From the NCBI RefSeq assembly GCF_024436035.1, contig NZ_JANFNG010000003.1, positions 1 to 64,000 of the forward strand: a stretch of 64,000 nt of DNA. The letters are read 5' to 3'. The position numbers and the translations under genes were made by a program. Positions 33,981 through 59,159 of this stretch are shown here, piece by piece; position 1 is the stretch's first letter, and the number at the start of each line of letters is the position of its first letter. The notes under the pieces are model-generated. The model saw only the letters and a program-made list of their open reading frames with translations. It was not told the origin of the DNA and did no database searches. The stretch comes from Streptomyces humicola. Lineage in GTDB: Bacteria > Actinomycetota > Actinomycetes > Streptomycetales > Streptomycetaceae.

Positions 33981-34022
33981 GCCATCGGCCGGGGTGCACA
34001 CATGTGCACCCCGGCCGATGGC
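33981..34022 (-). terminator. Perfect 19-bp-stem terminator after cassette 4
   Basis: GCCATCGGCCGGGGTGCAC, loop ACAT, then the exact reverse complement. It lies 23 bp beyond the stop codon of the cassette 4 ATPase gene on the minus strand. This is the strongest hairpin in the window. Confidence 0.85.
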
Positions 34023-37499: not shown

Positions 37500-37530
37500 G
37501 CCCCGCCGGCGGCGTGGCCGCCGGCGGGGC
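37500..37530 (-). terminator. Intra-operon hairpin between SBP and permease, cassette 4
   Basis: GCCCCGCCGGCGGC, loop GTG, then the exact reverse complement (14-bp perfect stem). It lies 44 bp downstream of the SBP stop on the minus strand, the same relative place as the cassette 3 hairpin, and probably attenuates read-through to the permease and ATPase genes. Confidence 0.65.
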
Positions 37531-52355: not shown

Positions 52356-54587
52356 TTGAGCCGTGAAACTGACAGTTCGTCCTCAGGACCCCAGGGGCGC
52401 GGCGGTGCCGCGTACCCGTCCGGGACCCCGCCGTACGGAACGCGCCAGTATCCGTCGCTGCATCCGCAGGAGGATCCGCTGGGCGGCGGTGACGGCCCCG
52501 CAGGGAGCGGGGCGGCCGCGGAGAGCGCGGGCGCGGCCGAGCGCCGCCCCGATGGGCCGAAGACCGAGACCACGCTGACCACCCGGATCCGGATCAACAT
52601 CCCCGGCTCCCGGCCGATTCCGCCGGTGGTGGTGCGTACTCCGGTAACGGAGGGCAAGGACGGCTCGGCGAAGAGCCAGGGCAGCGCGGGTGCTGCGGGG
52701 GAGGTGCCCTCTGCCGACTCGGGGCAGGCGCCTGCTCCTTGGCCGCCACCGGGCGTCGGTTCCGCGGGCGCTGCCGGTGCTGCGAGTGCGGGCGCGGCTG
52801 CGGGTATGGCTGCGGCCGAGGCCGGTGCGCCGGGCGGCGGTACGGAAAAGCCTCCCGCCAGCGACTGGTTCGCGCCACGCAAGCCGCCGAGCGCGTCCGG
52901 CTCGTCCGGCTCAGCCGCATCGTCCGGTGCGGTAGGTGAATCCGGGGGCCCGTCGTCCGGCGGGATGCCGTCGGCCACGGGCGGCCCGGGCGCCGGTGTC
53001 CCGCGTCAGCCCAACATCCCGTACCTGAACGGGAATGCGGGCGTGCCGCACCCCGCGGGGCCCGTCGAGCAGGAGGCGCCCTCCCGCACGGCTCCGCCGT
53101 GGCCGCCGGAGACGGGTCCGTCGTCCGATCAGGAGCAGGGCCCGGTCGCCGGGCCGCCGGCCGGCAGCGTGCCGTTCCCGACGCAGACGTCACCCGCGGC
53201 CGGGCAGGAGCCGCCCGCCGGTCCCACTGTCGGCCCGATGACGGGCGGGCTGCGTACGCCGACGGAGTCGCCGCGGCCCGGGTACCGTCCGCCGAGCGGC
53301 GGCACCGGGTCCTTCCGCCCACTCTCCGACGCCGCGGCCGACGCACCGGCAGCGGCTCCCGGCCCGCTGGGTTCGCCGGGTGTGCCGGGAGTGCCGGGTG
53401 CGCCCGCTGCGCCGAGAATGTTTGATATGCCCGGTCCGACGCCCGAGGTGCCGAACGCGTCGGCAGCGTCGTCCATGTCCTCGGCTGCCGACGACGGCCC
53501 GGGGGCGCACGTCTCCGGCGACACGCTGATCAGCGGCGTGCGCACGGTGCCCCCGCCGGGGGCGAACCCCCTCACGCCGCAGGCTGCGGGCTCCGCTTCG
53601 TCCTCCCGAAGGGGGGTGGGCGCCAAGCCGGCGTCCAAGGGGCGTTCCAAGCTGGTGCTGGCGGGTGCCGGCCTGGTCGGCGTGCTCGCTGTCGCCTACG
53701 GCGCGGGCCTGCTCATGGACCACGCGGACGTTCCCAACGGCACCGTCGTGCTGGGGACGAACATCGGCGGGAAGAGCAAGGACGACGCGGTCAAGGCGCT
53801 GGATGCGGCTATGGGCAACCGGGCCACCGCACCGCTGCAGATCGAGGTCGGCAACCAGTCCAAGCAGTTGGACCCGCAGCTCGCCGGGCTCGGCATCGAC
53901 ACGGACGAAACGGTCCGCGAGGTCGCGCACCGCGACTACAACCCGATCTCCGTGATCAGCTCACTCTTCGGAGGAACGCACGACGTCGCACCGGCGATCA
54001 CCGTCGACCAGGACAAACTGGGCAGCGCGCTGCAGACGCTGACGGCGGGCACGGGCTCCGGCTCCGGCTCAGACGGCATGGTCAAGTTCGTCGACGGCAA
54101 ACCGGTCGCCGTCCCGGGCAGGCCCTACCAGGCCGTCGATCCGAACTCCGCCGCGCAGAAGATAACGGCGGAGTACACGCAGCGCGCCGAGACCGGCCAG
54201 AACCAACCGGTGCCGCTTCAGGTGACCGTCCAGCAGCCCAAGGTCACGCAGGCCGCGCTCGAAAAGGCGATCATGACGATCGGTGATCCGGCGATGTCCG
54301 GAAGGATCACCGTGGTCGCGGGGACGAAGGAGGTCCCGTTCAGCCCGCAGAAGTCGCTGAGCAAGATCCTCACGATCGTCCCGGACGCGCAGGGGCAGCT
54401 CACGCTCCACTTCGACCTGCAGGTGCTGCAGCAGCTGTACGGCAACTCCTTCGACGGTGTCCTACTGGTGCGCGGCGACGGCTCCAAGACGCCGGTCACC
54501 CCGCAGGACGTGGCGTCGGCGATGATGCCGGAGCTGCGCAAGACCGCGGCAACGAAGATCGCGACGATCCCCAACGTGGCGAAGTAG
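52356..54587 (+). CDS. Membrane-anchored protein with disordered N-terminus and PG_binding_4-like repeats
   Basis: A 743-residue protein. Residues 1-430 are low complexity, rich in Gly, Pro, Ala and Ser. One transmembrane helix follows (about 431-455, KLVLAGAGLVGVLAVAYGAG). The external part (about 456-743) has two segments like the YoaR/PG_binding_4 fold: VVLGTNIGGKSKDDAVKALDAA ... LAGLGIDTDETV, and a second one around residues 640-720. No VanW or L,D-transpeptidase domain is present. The TTG at 52356 has GGGAG 8 nt upstream. Topology would put the disordered half inside the cell. A cell-wall role is inferred from the repeats. Confidence 0.75.
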   Translation: MSRETDSSSSGPQGRGGAAYPSGTPPYGTRQYPSLHPQEDPLGGGDGPAGSGAAAESAGAAERRPDGPKTETTLTTRIRINIPGSRPIPPVVVRTPVTEGKDGSAKSQGSAGAAGEVPSADSGQAPAPWPPPGVGSAGAAGAASAGAAAGMAAAEAGAPGGGTEKPPASDWFAPRKPPSASGSSGSAASSGAVGESGGPSSGGMPSATGGPGAGVPRQPNIPYLNGNAGVPHPAGPVEQEAPSRTAPPWPPETGPSSDQEQGPVAGPPAGSVPFPTQTSPAAGQEPPAGPTVGPMTGGLRTPTESPRPGYRPPSGGTGSFRPLSDAAADAPAAAPGPLGSPGVPGVPGAPAAPRMFDMPGPTPEVPNASAASSMSSAADDGPGAHVSGDTLISGVRTVPPPGANPLTPQAAGSASSSRRGVGAKPASKGRSKLVLAGAGLVGVLAVAYGAGLLMDHADVPNGTVVLGTNIGGKSKDDAVKALDAAMGNRATAPLQIEVGNQSKQLDPQLAGLGIDTDETVREVAHRDYNPISVISSLFGGTHDVAPAITVDQDKLGSALQTLTAGTGSGSGSDGMVKFVDGKPVAVPGRPYQAVDPNSAAQKITAEYTQRAETGQNQPVPLQVTVQQPKVTQAALEKAIMTIGDPAMSGRITVVAGTKEVPFSPQKSLSKILTIVPDAQGQLTLHFDLQVLQQLYGNSFDGVLLVRGDGSKTPVTPQDVASAMMPELRKTAATKIATIPNVAK

Positions 54588-54623
54588 CGCGCCGACAGCT
54601 GGGATCCACCGCTGGGATGTCAC

Positions 54624-54655
54624 GTCCTGGGGATGACAGATGTCATCCCCAGGAC
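54624..54655. promoter_or_regulatory. Perfect 32-bp palindrome upstream of the ABC/two-component operon
   Basis: GTCCTGGGGATGACA, spacer GA, then its exact reverse complement (15-bp arms). It lies 51 bp before the ABC ATPase start codon, where a promoter would be expected, and 36 bp after the stop of the preceding gene. It could be the operator of the LuxR-type response regulator encoded at the end of the operon, or a terminator, or both. Confidence 0.6.
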
Positions 54656-54706
54656 ACGACGGGCGGCACTGCCGCGAGGGCGGGCGGGTTGGCGAAGCTG
54701 TATGCC

Positions 54707-55672
54707 ATGAGCGCTACAGCCGCACCGACATCCGCATCCACGCCGCCGCCAAAACGTGACACGGGAACACCCGTCGTCCGCTTCTCGGGCGTGAACAAGA
54801 GCTACGGACAGGTCAAGGCCGTCCAGGAGCTCCATCTGAATCTGCACTCCGGCGAGACGGTGGCACTGCTCGGGCCGAACGGCGCGGGCAAGTCCACCAC
54901 CCTCGACCTGCTGCTCGGACTGCGCAACGCCGATTCGGGCACCGTCGAGGTCTTCGGGTCCACGCCCGCGCGTGCCATAGCCAGGGGCAAGGTGGGCGCG
55001 ATGCTGCAGAGCGGCGGCCTGATGGAGGAGGTCAAGGTCCGCGAGCTGGTCAAGCTCGCCTGCGACCTGCACCCGCGCGCCTATCCGGTCGAGAAGGTGA
55101 TGCAGAGCGCGGGCGTCCAGGACATAGCCGACCGCATGGTCAACAAGCTCTCCGGAGGCCAGGAGCAGCGGGTGCGCTTCGCCCTCGCCACTGCGGGCGC
55201 GAGCGACCTGATCATCCTCGACGAACCGACCACCGGCATGGACGTCACCGTCCGCCAGGCCTTCTGGGCGAAGATGCGGGAGCAGGCGGCCCAGGGCCGC
55301 ACGGTCCTGTTCGCCACGCACTACCTCGAAGAAGCCGACGCCATCGCCGACCGGGTGATCGTCCTGCACCGGGGGCGGATACTCGCCGACGGCTCGGCCG
55401 CGGAGATCAAGGCGAAGGCCGGTGCCCGTCGCATCGTCTTCGACCTTGAGGGGCCGATCGACGAGGCCGCGCTCCGCGGGCTGCCGTCCCTCACCACGCT
55501 CTCCGTCTCGGGCCGCACGGTCCGCATCCAGTCCACCGACGCCGACGCGACCACACACGCGATCTACGGGCTCGGTCTCTACCCCCGCAATCTGGAAGTC
55601 TCCGGCCTTGGCCTGGAGCAGGCGTTCATAGCGATCACCGACGCCGCGACCGCCGAGGAGGCAGCCCGATGA
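54707..55672 (+). CDS. ABC-2 exporter ATPase
   Basis: A 321-residue cytosolic ATPase of the drug/lipid exporter (DrrA/CcmA-like) class. It has Walker A GPNGAGKST, signature LSGGQEQRVRFALA, Walker B LIILDEPTTGMD, the switch histidine in FATHYLEE, and a C-terminal regulatory domain ending LGLEQAFIAITDAATAEEAAR. The ATG at 54707 (MSATAAPTSAS) gives the normal start of the fold after a Thr/Pro-rich leader; in-frame starts further up run into the palindrome. The stop overlaps the permease start (ATGA). It forms an operon with a permease, a histidine kinase and a response regulator. Confidence 0.9.
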   Translation: MSATAAPTSASTPPPKRDTGTPVVRFSGVNKSYGQVKAVQELHLNLHSGETVALLGPNGAGKSTTLDLLLGLRNADSGTVEVFGSTPARAIARGKVGAMLQSGGLMEEVKVRELVKLACDLHPRAYPVEKVMQSAGVQDIADRMVNKLSGGQEQRVRFALATAGASDLIILDEPTTGMDVTVRQAFWAKMREQAAQGRTVLFATHYLEEADAIADRVIVLHRGRILADGSAAEIKAKAGARRIVFDLEGPIDEAALRGLPSLTTLSVSGRTVRIQSTDADATTHAIYGLGLYPRNLEVSGLGLEQAFIAITDAATAEEAAR

Positions 55673-56409
55673 AGACGCTCGTCAAGCTTGAGATCATCCG
55701 CACCGTGCGCAACAAGCGGTTCATGTTCTTCTCGGTGATCTACCCGTCGGCGCTGTTCATGCTCATCGCCGGCCCGGCGAAGAACGACACGGCGATAGGC
55801 GGCACCGGCCTGACCATGCCGCTGTACTACATGGTCGCCATGGCCTCGTTCGGCGCCCTGACGGCGGTGCTGATGGGCAACAGCGAGCGCATCGCCAAGG
55901 AGCGCGAGAAGGGGTGGGTACGGCAGCTTCGGCTCACCTCGCTGCCCGGCCGGGGATACGTCATAGCCAAGATCGCCTCGGCGGCCACGGTGACCCTGCC
56001 CTCGATCGTGATGGTCCAGATAGTGGCGGCCGCCTTCAAGGGCGTGCGGCTGGACGCCTGGCAGTGGGGCGCGCTCACGGTCTCCATCTGGGCAGGGAGC
56101 CTCGTCTTCGCGGCCCTGGGCGTGGCCATCGGCTACATGGCCTCCGGTGACGCCGTGCGCCCGCTCACCATGCTCGTCTACTTCGCCCTGTCGATACTCG
56201 GCGGCCTGTGGATGCCGTTCACGATCTTCCCGCACTGGCTGCAGGAGACCGCCAAGTGGCTGCCCACCCACCCCTACACCGCTCTCGGCCAGGCGATCGA
56301 GCTCGGCAATGCACCGCACGTCAAGGACATGGCGATCCTCGCCGCATATCTCGTGATCTTCGTAGGTGCGGCAGCATGGCTGTACCGCAAGGACACCCGC
56401 AAGGCGTGA
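55669..56409 (+). CDS. ABC-2 type permease
   Basis: A 246-residue membrane protein with six hydrophobic segments, including FFSVIYPSALFMLIAGPA, LYYMVAMASFGALTAVLMG, WAGSLVFAALGVAIGYMAS and LTMLVYFALSILGGLWMPF. The last, with the following PHWLQETAKWLPTHPY, is a typical ABC-2 feature. It forms the pore for the ATPase encoded just before it (start overlaps that stop). Substrate is unknown; in related loci such pairs export lipids or give resistance to membrane-active compounds. Confidence 0.9.
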   Translation: MKTLVKLEIIRTVRNKRFMFFSVIYPSALFMLIAGPAKNDTAIGGTGLTMPLYYMVAMASFGALTAVLMGNSERIAKEREKGWVRQLRLTSLPGRGYVIAKIASAATVTLPSIVMVQIVAAAFKGVRLDAWQWGALTVSIWAGSLVFAALGVAIGYMASGDAVRPLTMLVYFALSILGGLWMPFTIFPHWLQETAKWLPTHPYTALGQAIELGNAPHVKDMAILAAYLVIFVGAAAWLYRKDTRKA

Positions 56410-56419
56410 GGACGTGACC

Positions 56420-57634
56420 GTGAGGGAGACCCGCCTCGGAATGGGGGACGCGCCGGAGACCCGGCGGGAGCAGTGGATCAAGCTGTGCTGGACCTCGGTC
56501 TACCTGCTGTACATGGCATCCACGGTCGGCGACCTGGTCAGCGGGCGTCACACCCCGTTGGCCACCGCGCTGGGCTGGCTGGGGCTCGCGGCCTTCCTGG
56601 TCCCGTACTACTACCTGGTGCTCAGCCGACGCCCCCGCGACCCGCTGGCGTGGTGGCAGGTCGCCATTCTCTCCTGGCTGTACACGACGGCGGGGGTCCT
56701 GACGCTGATGCTCGGGGTGCCGTGGCTGGTGCTGTTCGTCTACGTGACGATCGGGACGGGCATTCTGCTGCCGTACCGGCGCGCGAGGTGGGCGGTGCCG
56801 TTCTCGGCGCTGTCGCTGCTGGGATTCGGCAAGCTGGTGGGCGCCGGCGGCTGGGTCCTGGCCGGCGAGTTCCTTCCGGCGATGATGGGCGGTGCGGCGA
56901 TGATGGGCGTCGCGCAGATGCGGCGCACCATGCGCGAGCTGCGCGACGCCCGGGAGACCATCGCGCATCTGGCGGCCAACGAGGAGCGTCTGCGGCTCGC
57001 CCGCGATCTGCACGACCTGTTGGGGCACTCGCTCTCGCTCATCACGCTCAAGAGCGAGCTGGCGGGCCGCATGCTTCCCGACCGCCCGGAGGACGCGGCC
57101 AAGCAGGTCGCCGACATCGAACAGGTCAGCCGCCAGGCGCTCGTCGACGTGCGGGAGGCGGTCAGCGGCTACCGGCGGCCGACGCTGGGTGTGGAGCTCG
57201 CGGGCGTGCGCACGGCGCTGCGCACGGCGGGGGTCGAGGCGAGGATCGCACCGTCACTCGACCGCCCGCCGCAGGAGCAGTACCCCGGGCTCGGAGCGGA
57301 GGAGGAAGGCGCGCTCGCCTGGGCGCTGCGCGAGGCCGTGACCAACGTCGTGCGGCACAGCAGCGCCAAGCGCTGCGATCTCGCGCTCGACGAGGTGTGG
57401 GACGCCGACGAGGGCCGCTACCTGCGTCTCGAAGTCGTCGATGACGGTCACGGCCCGGCGCGTGGCCACCGCATGGGGAATGGGCTGAACGGTCTGGAGG
57501 AGCGCCTGCTGCTCTCCGGCGGCCGCCTGGAGACCGGTTCGCCCGGGCGCGGCGGCTTCTCTCTGAAGGCGTATGTGCCGTTGCGCAGGGTGAATGAGAC
57601 GGAGACCGAGGCGGTCACCTCCCCGCGAGGCTGA
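56420..57634 (+). CDS. DesK/NarL-class sensor histidine kinase
   Basis: A 404-residue membrane sensor. Five or six transmembrane helices lie in residues 20-165. The HisKA_3 dimerisation domain follows, with phospho-accepting His198 in ARDLHDLLGHSLS, and a HATPase_c domain with N box REAVTNVVRHSSA and G motif GNGLNGLEERL. The GTG at 56420 has GAGGA 8 nt upstream; GTG 56414 is a near alternative. Long membrane-embedded sensors without an external loop usually sense the membrane or their partner ABC exporter. It probably phosphorylates the response regulator encoded 73 bp downstream. Confidence 0.9.
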   Translation: MRETRLGMGDAPETRREQWIKLCWTSVYLLYMASTVGDLVSGRHTPLATALGWLGLAAFLVPYYYLVLSRRPRDPLAWWQVAILSWLYTTAGVLTLMLGVPWLVLFVYVTIGTGILLPYRRARWAVPFSALSLLGFGKLVGAGGWVLAGEFLPAMMGGAAMMGVAQMRRTMRELRDARETIAHLAANEERLRLARDLHDLLGHSLSLITLKSELAGRMLPDRPEDAAKQVADIEQVSRQALVDVREAVSGYRRPTLGVELAGVRTALRTAGVEARIAPSLDRPPQEQYPGLGAEEEGALAWALREAVTNVVRHSSAKRCDLALDEVWDADEGRYLRLEVVDDGHGPARGHRMGNGLNGLEERLLLSGGRLETGSPGRGGFSLKAYVPLRRVNETETEAVTSPRG

Positions 57635-57695
57635 CCCAGAGGCGGCCGACCCGGGCAGTTGTCCACAGGCCCGGATCGGGTGCGCGGCCAGTCGC

Positions 57696-57701
57696 TACCC
57701 T
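57696..57701 (+). promoter_or_regulatory. Candidate internal -10 box (TACCCT) for the response regulator
   Basis: TACCCT is followed by 6 nt and the ATG at 57708, with no Shine-Dalgarno between. This suggests an extra leaderless promoter inside the operon for the regulator gene. Confidence 0.4.
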
Positions 57702-57707
57702 GCTCGC

Positions 57708-58313
57708 ATGATCAGGGTGCTGCTGGCGGAGGACCAGGGGATGGTCCGCGAGGCGCTGGCCACGCTTCTCGGGCTCGAGGACGACATCGAGGTGGTTGCG
57801 CAGGTCGCGCGCGGCGACGAGATCGTCCCGGCGGCCCGGGAGCACGGGGTGGACGTCGCGCTGCTCGACATCGAGATGCCGGGGATGACCGGTATCGACG
57901 CGGCTGCGCAGCTGCGCAAGGAGCTCCCCGGTGTGAAGGTGGTGATCGTCACCACCTTCGGCCGTCCCGGCTATCTGCGCCGCGCCATGGAGAACGGCAC
58001 GGACGCCTTCCTCGTCAAGGACGCCCCCGCGGCGCAGCTCGCCGACGCGGTGCGCGCAGTGCTGCGCGGTGAGAAGGTCATCGATCCGACGCTGGCGGCC
58101 GCTGCGCTCTCCGAGGGCGCCGACCCCTTGACCGCCCGCGAGCGTGATGTGCTGCGGGCCGTGGCCGGGGGCTCGGTCAACGCAGAGATCGCCACCGCCC
58201 TCCACCTCTCCGAGGGCACCGTGCGCAACTACCTGTCCACGGCGATCCAGAAGACCGGTGCCCGCAACCGTTCCGAGGCGGTCCGCATTGCACGGGAGAA
58301 GGGCTGGCTTTGA
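57708..58313 (+). CDS. NarL/LuxR-family response regulator
   Basis: A 201-residue DNA-binding regulator. Receiver domain: acidic pocket Glu8/Asp9, phospho-accepting Asp54 in ALLDIEMPGM, and the conserved lysine in FLVKDAPA. LuxR-type helix-turn-helix: LTARERDVLRAVAGGSVNAEIATALHLSEGTVRNYLS. The best binding-site candidate in the locus is the palindrome at 54624-54655. The start codon follows a TACCCT box, so it may also be made from its own leaderless transcript. It would control the linked ABC exporter. Confidence 0.92.
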   Translation: MIRVLLAEDQGMVREALATLLGLEDDIEVVAQVARGDEIVPAAREHGVDVALLDIEMPGMTGIDAAAQLRKELPGVKVVIVTTFGRPGYLRRAMENGTDAFLVKDAPAAQLADAVRAVLRGEKVIDPTLAAAALSEGADPLTARERDVLRAVAGGSVNAEIATALHLSEGTVRNYLSTAIQKTGARNRSEAVRIAREKGWL

Positions 58314-58325
58314 CGGGCCGCGCGG

Positions 58326-59159
58326 TCAGTTGAGCATCGCCCGGGCCGCGCGGGCCCGCCGGCGTACGGTTTCCGCGGCCGCTGGGTCCAGCTCCTCCAC
58401 GACCTGGGCGTACTCCTCCATCTCGACGGCGCCGTCGATGAACTTCCCGCGCTGCACGAGCAGTTGGGCCCGCTCGAAGCGCAGCCGTGCGGGATGGCGG
58501 GGGAGCAGCAGAGAAAGATCGACCGCCCACAGCTGCACGCCGGTGTGTTCGGGGCGCGCGGCGGCCCAGGCCCTTATGTTGTTGAGGATCCGGGCGATGA
58601 TGTCGAGCGGCTCCGCGGGTTCCAGCATCGAGGGGGCGAGCGCGGTGCCGGCGGCGCCGGTGACGAGCAGCTCGGTGTCCTCGACGGTCAGTGGCTGTCC
58701 GCCCCGGAACGGATCGGCGAGCACATGCGACCCGTCCGGATCGCCGATTCCCACCACGAAGTGCCCGGGCAACGCCACCCCGTACACCGGGGCGTCCAGC
58801 CTGCGCCCCACCTCCATCCACACCACCGACAGCAGGATCGGCAGCCCACGCCTGCGCCGTAGCACGTGCTGGAGCAGCGAGGAGTCCAGGCGCCGGTAGT
58901 CCGACTGCAGCCCGTGGAAGCCGTAGCCCTCGCCGAGGACGTCGGCGAGGGCTTCCGCCCAGTCGTGCGGATCCTCCGGGACGCGGTGCTGCACCACAGC
59001 CTCCGCAAGCCGGTCGAGCTCGTCCATGCAGGCCGCCATCTCGGGCGTGCCGAACTCCGGATCCGCCTCAGCGCCCACGAGCAGGCACAACAGTGCGAGG
59101 TTCGGCTGCTCGGCACGCACCTCCTCGAAGAAACGTTGGCGACGGCCGGCCTCGTCCAT
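58326..59159 (-). CDS. SirB1-family transglutaminase-like protein
   Basis: A 277-residue protein with a SirB1/Transglut_core2 fold. The core is VLRRRRGLPILLSVVWMEVGRRLDAPVYGVALPGHFVVG. The classical cysteine of active transglutaminases is not evident there, as in most SirB1 proteins, so enzymatic activity is doubtful. A C-terminal helical repeat resembling TPR (LRFERAQLLVQRGKFIDGAVEMEEY) completes the family layout. The ATG at 59159 (MDEAGRR) is chosen; a GTG nine bases upstream is the alternative. It lies 9 bp after the GNAT gene on the same strand, so they are likely cotranscribed. It is convergent with the response regulator, 12 bp apart. Confidence 0.82.
   Translation of the reverse strand: MDEAGRRQRFFEEVRAEQPNLALLCLLVGAEADPEFGTPEMAACMDELDRLAEAVVQHRVPEDPHDWAEALADVLGEGYGFHGLQSDYRRLDSSLLQHVLRRRRGLPILLSVVWMEVGRRLDAPVYGVALPGHFVVGIGDPDGSHVLADPFRGGQPLTVEDTELLVTGAAGTALAPSMLEPAEPLDIIARILNNIRAWAAARPEHTGVQLWAVDLSLLLPRHPARLRFERAQLLVQRGKFIDGAVEMEEYAQVVEELDPAAAETVRRRARAARAMLN

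Follow-up and report, generated by a model that had tools for sequence, protein, structure and literature searches.

A single palindrome in the window, by which we mean the whole stretch of 64,000 nucleotides analysed, probably serves both of its neighbours (we put this at about two chances in three): as DNA it would carry a DesR-like operator for the ABC-exporter operon downstream, and as RNA it would form the 3′-end hairpin of the gene upstream. Across relatives, the core of the palindrome is conserved and stands at a fixed spacing from the promoter, the outer arms differ in sequence and stay complementary, and hairpins spanning the core replace separate ones. That the palindrome is so long and so perfect is best explained by this second function, the ending of the upstream transcript.

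The palindrome occupies positions 54624–54655 (no strand assigned) and reads GTCCTGGGGATGACA-GA-TGTCATCCCCAGGAC. Its 15-base arms are exactly complementary around a 2-bp spacer, so that the perfect 32-bp palindrome described in the earlier note is confirmed. With interruptions, the inverted repeat reaches 20-nt arms (54619–54660, 90% complementary). The start lies 36 nt beyond the stop codon of the upstream gene (54585–54587) and the end 51 nt before the likely ATPase ATG (54707). The full sequence GTCCTGGGGATGACA-GA-TGTCATCCCCAGGAC has a single match in the 64-kb window with up to 3 mismatches allowed, and none of 100 shuffles contained one. Perfect 15-bp palindromes with a spacer of 0–8 nt were absent from 60 simulated 64-kb windows (first-order Markov), and the same criterion gave 5 counts in the real window, which we read as two palindromes, the one at 54624–54655 and nested counts of another at 33981–34022. 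The 32-bp palindrome is real and not due to chance. In the 7.07-Mb genome, one occurrence was found of the inner pattern GGATGACA-N2-TGTCATCC, one of the 24-mer of the palindrome (up to 3 mismatches) and one of the ATGACA-N2-TGTCAT core; the relaxed form RTGACA-N2-TGTCAY has a further site at G000:C41:30198. A repeat or mobile element was considered and rejected because the palindrome is unique in the genome. Among 249 family genomes the 24-mer, again with up to 3 mismatches, is present in 9. In five of these a copy lies upstream of the ATPase gene (the window and L006–L009), and the 3-kb stretches L003, L004, L005 and L010 contain no gene of the exporter operon. No Rfam family reached its gathering score in 53500–58500.

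Downstream, four genes form a single run on the + strand. The ABC exporter ATPase (54707–55672; ABC_tran, 4.8e-28) has DrrA as its best NCBIfam model, with a score under the cut-off; its start was placed by conserved spacing and its mRNA is likely leaderless. It is followed by an ABC-2 membrane permease (55669–56409; ABC2_membrane families), a DesK-like HisKA_3 histidine kinase (56414–57634, start codon uncertain), whose nearest solved structures are of DesK (E=2e-30), and a DesR-like response regulator with Response_reg and GerE domains (57708–58313). The solved structure nearest to the regulator is DesR 4ldz (E=1.8e-51), followed by 4zmr (3.8e-47) and 4hye (4.8e-47), both entitled ‘Response regulator’, and by VraR (3.8e-33). 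Neither kinase nor regulator reached an NCBIfam cut-off, the best models being MctR and MctS. This regulator is the presumed binder of the core. The upstream gene is codirectional (52356–54587, + strand, start uncertain), and the hairpin is its putative 3′ end. From a TTG start it encodes 743 aa with a long N-terminal part rich in proline, glycine and serine. The product is tentatively labelled VanW-like. A Pfam search with the protein read from 52383 returned no family at 0.001, and one with the last 295 residues gave only two weak matches below cut-off.

The conservation of the site was examined around orthologous operons. A regulator match at E≤1e-60 was present in 108 of 121 family genomes, and in many genomes, among the matches listed, a second regulator match is a paralogue of about 70% identity. 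We analysed 177 loci (L041–L080, L103–L182, L183–L238 and the window) and excluded 20 stretches around paralogues (L081–L100). The named loci belong to Streptomyces, Kitasatospora and near genera, apart from the Streptosporangium-titled L127 and an actinomycete assembly, L114; S. coelicolor is not among them. Thirty-two of the 177 lack an ATPase with 55% identity or more in the fetched stretch and 8 are cut by a contig edge, which leaves 137 testable loci. Of these, 125 are unique; some genomes occur in two sets, and the removal of identical promoters corrects this partly. All 137, nearly every one from Streptomycetaceae, contain the pattern [ACG]TGAC-N4-GTCA[TCG] between −130 and +20 relative to where the ATPase starts in the alignment.

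The earlier note had proposed autoregulation of the operon through a dimer site, a proposal open to refutation had the palindrome been absent upstream of orthologues. The presence of the core at 137/137 testable loci lends this proposal support. In the window the conserved core is ATGACAGATGTCAT (54633–54646, no strand assigned), and it also stands out in the column conservation of 92 unique promoters. Exactly ATGACATCTGTCAT is found at 70 of the 125 unique loci, and the window carries the reverse complement of its spacer, GA. In 98 genomes drawn from the class, ATGACATCYGTCAT-N20-CWCTG with 1 mismatch was detected in 4. Three of these are among the 6 genomes from the window's family (its own included in the 6) and the fourth is G264; the window's genome escapes the pattern, as its core carries GA in place of TC.

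Some loci depart from the common arrangement. The regulator orthologue is inverted, or lies kilobases away from the ABC and kinase genes, in L055, L057, L060, L047 and L051–L053, and L055, L057 and L060 retain the operator core upstream of the ATPase gene. The stretches L081, L083, L092 and L099 carry an ABC/kinase/regulator operon related to this one, the regulators sharing about 70% identity, with a similar but less symmetric site, RTGACATTYGTC, before the ATPase gene, which suggests diverged specificity. Upstream of the ATPase gene in L238, an additional CATGACATCC stands immediately 5′ of the core (CATGACATCCATGACATCTGTCAT), possibly as a tandem site.

Beyond the core, the 92 unique promoters share conserved columns at CACGAC (+22 to +27 from the core), RCACTGCC (+33 to +40), A (+62) and T (+66). 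In the window the half-site CACGAC lies at 54655–54660 (+ strand), and 79 of the 125 unique loci have 5–6 of its 6 letters at the same offset. A weak upstream half-site, GTCACG (54619–54624, + strand), mirrors CACGAC about the core, and GTCAY occurs at −14/−15 of the core at 46/125 loci, so the operator has some larger symmetry. The putative −35 region is GCACTGCC (54666–54673, + strand); CACTG stands at exactly +34 of the core at 103/125 loci, and we infer that the −35-like box CACTGCC acts as the −35 region. The putative −10, GAAGCT (54694–54699, + strand), has A and T at the conserved positions +62 and +66.

An in-frame ATG is located at +72 to +74 from the core at 100/125 loci. Counted from this ATG, −11 is A in 79 and −7 is T in 77 of the 100 aligned loci, −1 is C or T in all of them, and a Shine–Dalgarno-like GGAG, GAGG or AGGA is seen in 8. 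The window has its ATG at +74 and, counted from it, A at −11 without T at −7, a poor −10 fit; a simple scan returned no consensus sigma-70 match. The ATPase mRNA is probably leaderless, starting at or next to the ATG, and we read the centre of the operator as about 66 nt upstream of this predicted start, a place fit for an activator. Upstream of the first gene, the inverted repeat is accompanied by a direct repeat, CACGAC resembling the left half CATGAC. The operator reading of the core is well supported: most likely an autoregulated, DesR-like exporter operon has its operator here, to which the regulator would bind.

The outer arms behave differently from the core. They differ between species with complementarity retained, and they lie outside the conserved operator although they give the palindrome its length; the earlier suggestion that the entire 32 bp is a dimer site has to be narrowed, since the conserved part comprises only the 14-bp core and the flanking half-sites. 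At least 6 contiguous pairs beyond the 14-nt core were found at 15/125 loci and at least 8 pairs at 12/125. When right flanks were swapped among loci, the maximum in 5000 shuffles was 5 loci (at least 6 pairs) and 4 loci (at least 8 pairs). Among 14 long-arm loci there are 10 distinct outer-arm sequences, and 9 of 10 outer pairs are changed on both sides (44 such cells, a level that 0/500 shuffles attained). The flank-swap test over 125 loci is the cleaner of the two because the pair-change test used loci chosen for their long arms. Outer complementarity in the remaining 110 loci is in slight excess (3.25 of 9 versus 3.01 expected, sd 0.11). In L067, L162 and L194 the left outer arm stands apart from the core, but the outer stem GAGTGCCGC/GCGGCACTC is still paired; in L219 and L221 the inner part is interrupted and an outer stem persists.

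Folded as RNA, a 50-nt segment containing the repeat reaches −32.2 kcal/mol with a 4-nt loop (shuffled mean −16.1), and the 32 nt of the palindrome reach −28.1 kcal/mol. The hairpin lacks a T-tract (the 8 nt past 54655 include 0 T, the 10 nt past 54660 include 1) and is not a canonical intrinsic terminator composed of a GC-rich stem-loop and a T-tract. Judged by its sequence, it is instead of the U-lacking 3′-end type, with a stem of about −23 kcal/mol or lower past the stop and fewer than 3 U among the 8 nt that follow; this definition, in the available part of PMC8269248, applies to 40 nt folded at 30°C and is roughly comparable with our folds. The same part reports 353 of 535 highly structured 3′ ends of S. 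clavuligerus as U-lacking, and hairpins in Streptomyces are described, in the accessible portion of PMC12207403, as having few Us and as the longest and most stable. The operon mRNA probably begins beyond the repeat, so that only transcripts arriving from upstream would contain the hairpin as RNA.

Two other palindromes of the window, both on the − strand and without T-tracts, also follow genes. That at 33981–34022 is perfect, with 20-nt arms and a 2-nt spacer, 23 nt beyond the stop of an Opp-type ABC ATPase-like gene, and is a probable U-lacking terminator. That at 37500–37530 has perfect 14-nt arms and a 3-nt spacer; it follows the stop of a substrate-binding-protein-like gene at a distance of about 40 nt and precedes a permease-like gene, probably as a terminator or an attenuating hairpin within a transport operon. 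The tiny loop had previously been held against a terminator. That argument is not supported, in view of the 4-nt loop and −32.2 kcal/mol of the 50-nt fold, of the position of these two palindromes with 2–3 nt spacers just past stop codons, and of the exchange of hairpins between relatives described below.

A recognised codirectional gene ends within 450 nt of the core at 102/125 loci; it is of the window type at 75 and an S9 peptidase at 27. In the interval from stop to core, 0 of 13 loci with contiguous long arms contain a further hairpin at least as strong as −25 kcal/mol, versus 66 of 89 loci lacking such arms (Fisher p=2.5e-7, uncorrected for kinship). We then counted as merged the contiguous-arm loci together with five displaced- or interrupted-stem loci picked by hand, these five and the hairpin classes having been defined after inspection of the data. 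With the window-type upstream gene (n=75), 11 loci have a core-spanning hairpin, 63 another hairpin of −20 or stronger and 1, L108 (−18.2), neither; L172 is the sole locus among the 11 to combine a merged hairpin with another, at −23.8. In core-only loci of this group, with a gap of at most 200 nt, a separate hairpin was found at 62/63 versus 14.8 expected from shuffled sequence. The S9-peptidase group (n=27) includes 7 merged loci, 6 with another hairpin and 14 with neither, and a hairpin is therefore not obligatory.

Outside these groups, among the 23 loci with no recognised gene in reach, L079 has a different upstream gene, for a predicted membrane protein, with its stop 26 nt before the core and a merged hairpin of the same kind, and L188 has a core-spanning hairpin scoring −32.9. 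With the same upstream gene, core-spanning hairpins largely substitute for the separate hairpin of relatives. The gap between stop and core is 16–45 nt in the 13 contiguous-arm loci and longer in 68 of the 89 loci without such arms, as would be expected after deletion of the former hairpin. Such a short gap limits the room for a separate hairpin and therefore contributes to the replacement pattern.

On a tree of the ATPase (121 rows; 44 of 118 inner branches poorly supported), the merged state requires at least 12 changes, and contiguous arms only at least 10. Kinship-aware pairs on starred, that is well supported, branches numbered 6, with about 3 in the expected direction and 0 in reverse (p 0.125–0.5), a weak result. 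As the treekit test takes starred branches only, we wrote our own Python code to pair merged with core-only loci over all branches of the best tree, many of them poorly supported. This gave 11 pairs, of which 7 (threshold −20; p 0.016) or 8 (−25; p 0.008) are as expected and 0 in reverse. Streptomyces sp. AcH 505 (L152), for instance, is merged, and its neighbour on the tree, Streptomyces sp. 150FB (L157), has a separate hairpin. The merger of operator and terminator seems to have arisen several times.

Taken together, these observations suggest the following scheme. The core with the half-site CACGAC would be the operator for the phosphorylated DesR-like regulator, upstream of the −35 region, and the bound regulator would activate its own ABC-exporter/kinase/regulator operon, from which a leaderless transcript would start at the ATPase ATG or an adjacent base. 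Transcribed from the upstream gene, the palindrome with its outer arms would fold into a long, small-loop hairpin that may form the 3′ end by termination. Most window-type relatives would carry two elements, a separate hairpin and then a short operator; in the window the separate hairpin is missing and the arms of the operator would have been lengthened in replacement.

Could the whole palindrome be a protein site, for example for a dimer of dimers, with long arms devoid of any RNA role? The conserved core and half-sites, and the mirror relation of the weak upstream half-site to CACGAC, are in keeping with this. However, the bases between core and half-sites are conserved as complementarity and not as sequence, in some lineages only; long arms are found where another hairpin is absent; and L067, L162 and L194 keep their stem despite a displaced left outer arm. 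We therefore regard an operator alone as unlikely. At the opposite extreme, an ordinary hairpin ending the upstream gene and unrelated to the regulator would account for a −32 kcal/mol fold 36 nt past a stop codon and for the resemblance to the two other palindromes past stops in the window. It fares far worse, and we give it very little credence: the core is present at all testable loci, also where the hairpin is separate or where there is no strong one, and a promoter box and an ATG keep a fixed distance from it at most loci.

Mutation by itself offers another route. Template switching makes imperfect palindromes perfect, and in replication it may have lengthened a short palindromic operator without selection, which would give perfect arms that differ between lineages, as seen here. 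This explains neither why long arms occur at loci that lack the other hairpin nor why stems are retained with a displaced arm, and we consider it improbable, somewhat less so than a terminator alone. The palindrome shared between operator and upstream 3′ end remains the reading we prefer.

Counterparts of several parts of this system have been described. The B. subtilis YvfRSTU genes have the same order of ATPase, permease, kinase and regulator, and B. subtilis DesK/DesR provide the solved structures nearest to the window's kinase and regulator. Both come from a different phylum, and the comparison covers genes and structures; the window differs from them in its probably leaderless start and in an operator merged with the hairpin of the upstream gene. 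A possible counterpart in S. coelicolor is the SCO5131/5132 pair, a lead from gene neighbourhood. In the available part of PMC9739842, SCO5131/5132 are tabulated as a NarL-type pair without a name. SCO2165/66, considered for the same role, were rejected: they are AbrB1/B2, in which the gene for the regulator precedes that for the kinase, according to the accessible text of PMC7581861.

In the polyene-sensing LnrJK-LnrLMN system of B. subtilis, a two-component system drives the adjacent ABC transporter, as may occur in the window's operon. The neighbouring transporter is reported there as the sole target of the regulator, in the part of PMC7472640 at hand, and the ATGACA-N2-TGTCAT core likewise occurs once in the genome here. 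In contrast to the window, that part gives the order as kinase-regulator-transporter and draws a separate terminator between lnrK and lnrL. The U-lacking ‘I-shaped’ 3′ ends of Streptomyces, as their source presents them in the portion available, have a long stable stem, a short loop and few U, like the window's hairpin; those ends were mapped experimentally, whereas ours is predicted from sequence, and the apex of the stem is here also a conserved operator. Word and phrase searches of open-access literature for this operator or for operator/terminator mergers returned nothing pertinent, although a described case may well be missed by them, and no paper returned by one of these searches contained the core 14-mer. 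The parts are known and ordinary (a DesR-like operator, a U-lacking hairpin), and the repeated merger is new as far as limited literature searches show.

A bolder and more doubtful extension, which we consider unlikely though not remote, is that short palindromic operators seed terminators, an operator being lengthened into a hairpin once the neighbouring one that ends the upstream gene is lost, many independent times in one family, and that the merger couples both genes. If true, the core-bound regulator would be a roadblock to polymerases from upstream and so make termination there sharper, and read-through in turn would remove the regulator from its site, linking upstream transcription to induction of the exporter.

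For the family, the analysis provides a concrete operator and promoter map of a conserved Streptomycetaceae exporter/two-component operon. It also carries a warning that shape alone cannot assign long pre-operon palindromes to ‘operator’ or ‘terminator’. Finally, the loci form a natural series in which the same element is either split into terminator and operator or fused into one palindrome, and this series makes the origin of double-duty sites, which a protein recognises in DNA and which fold in RNA, directly testable.
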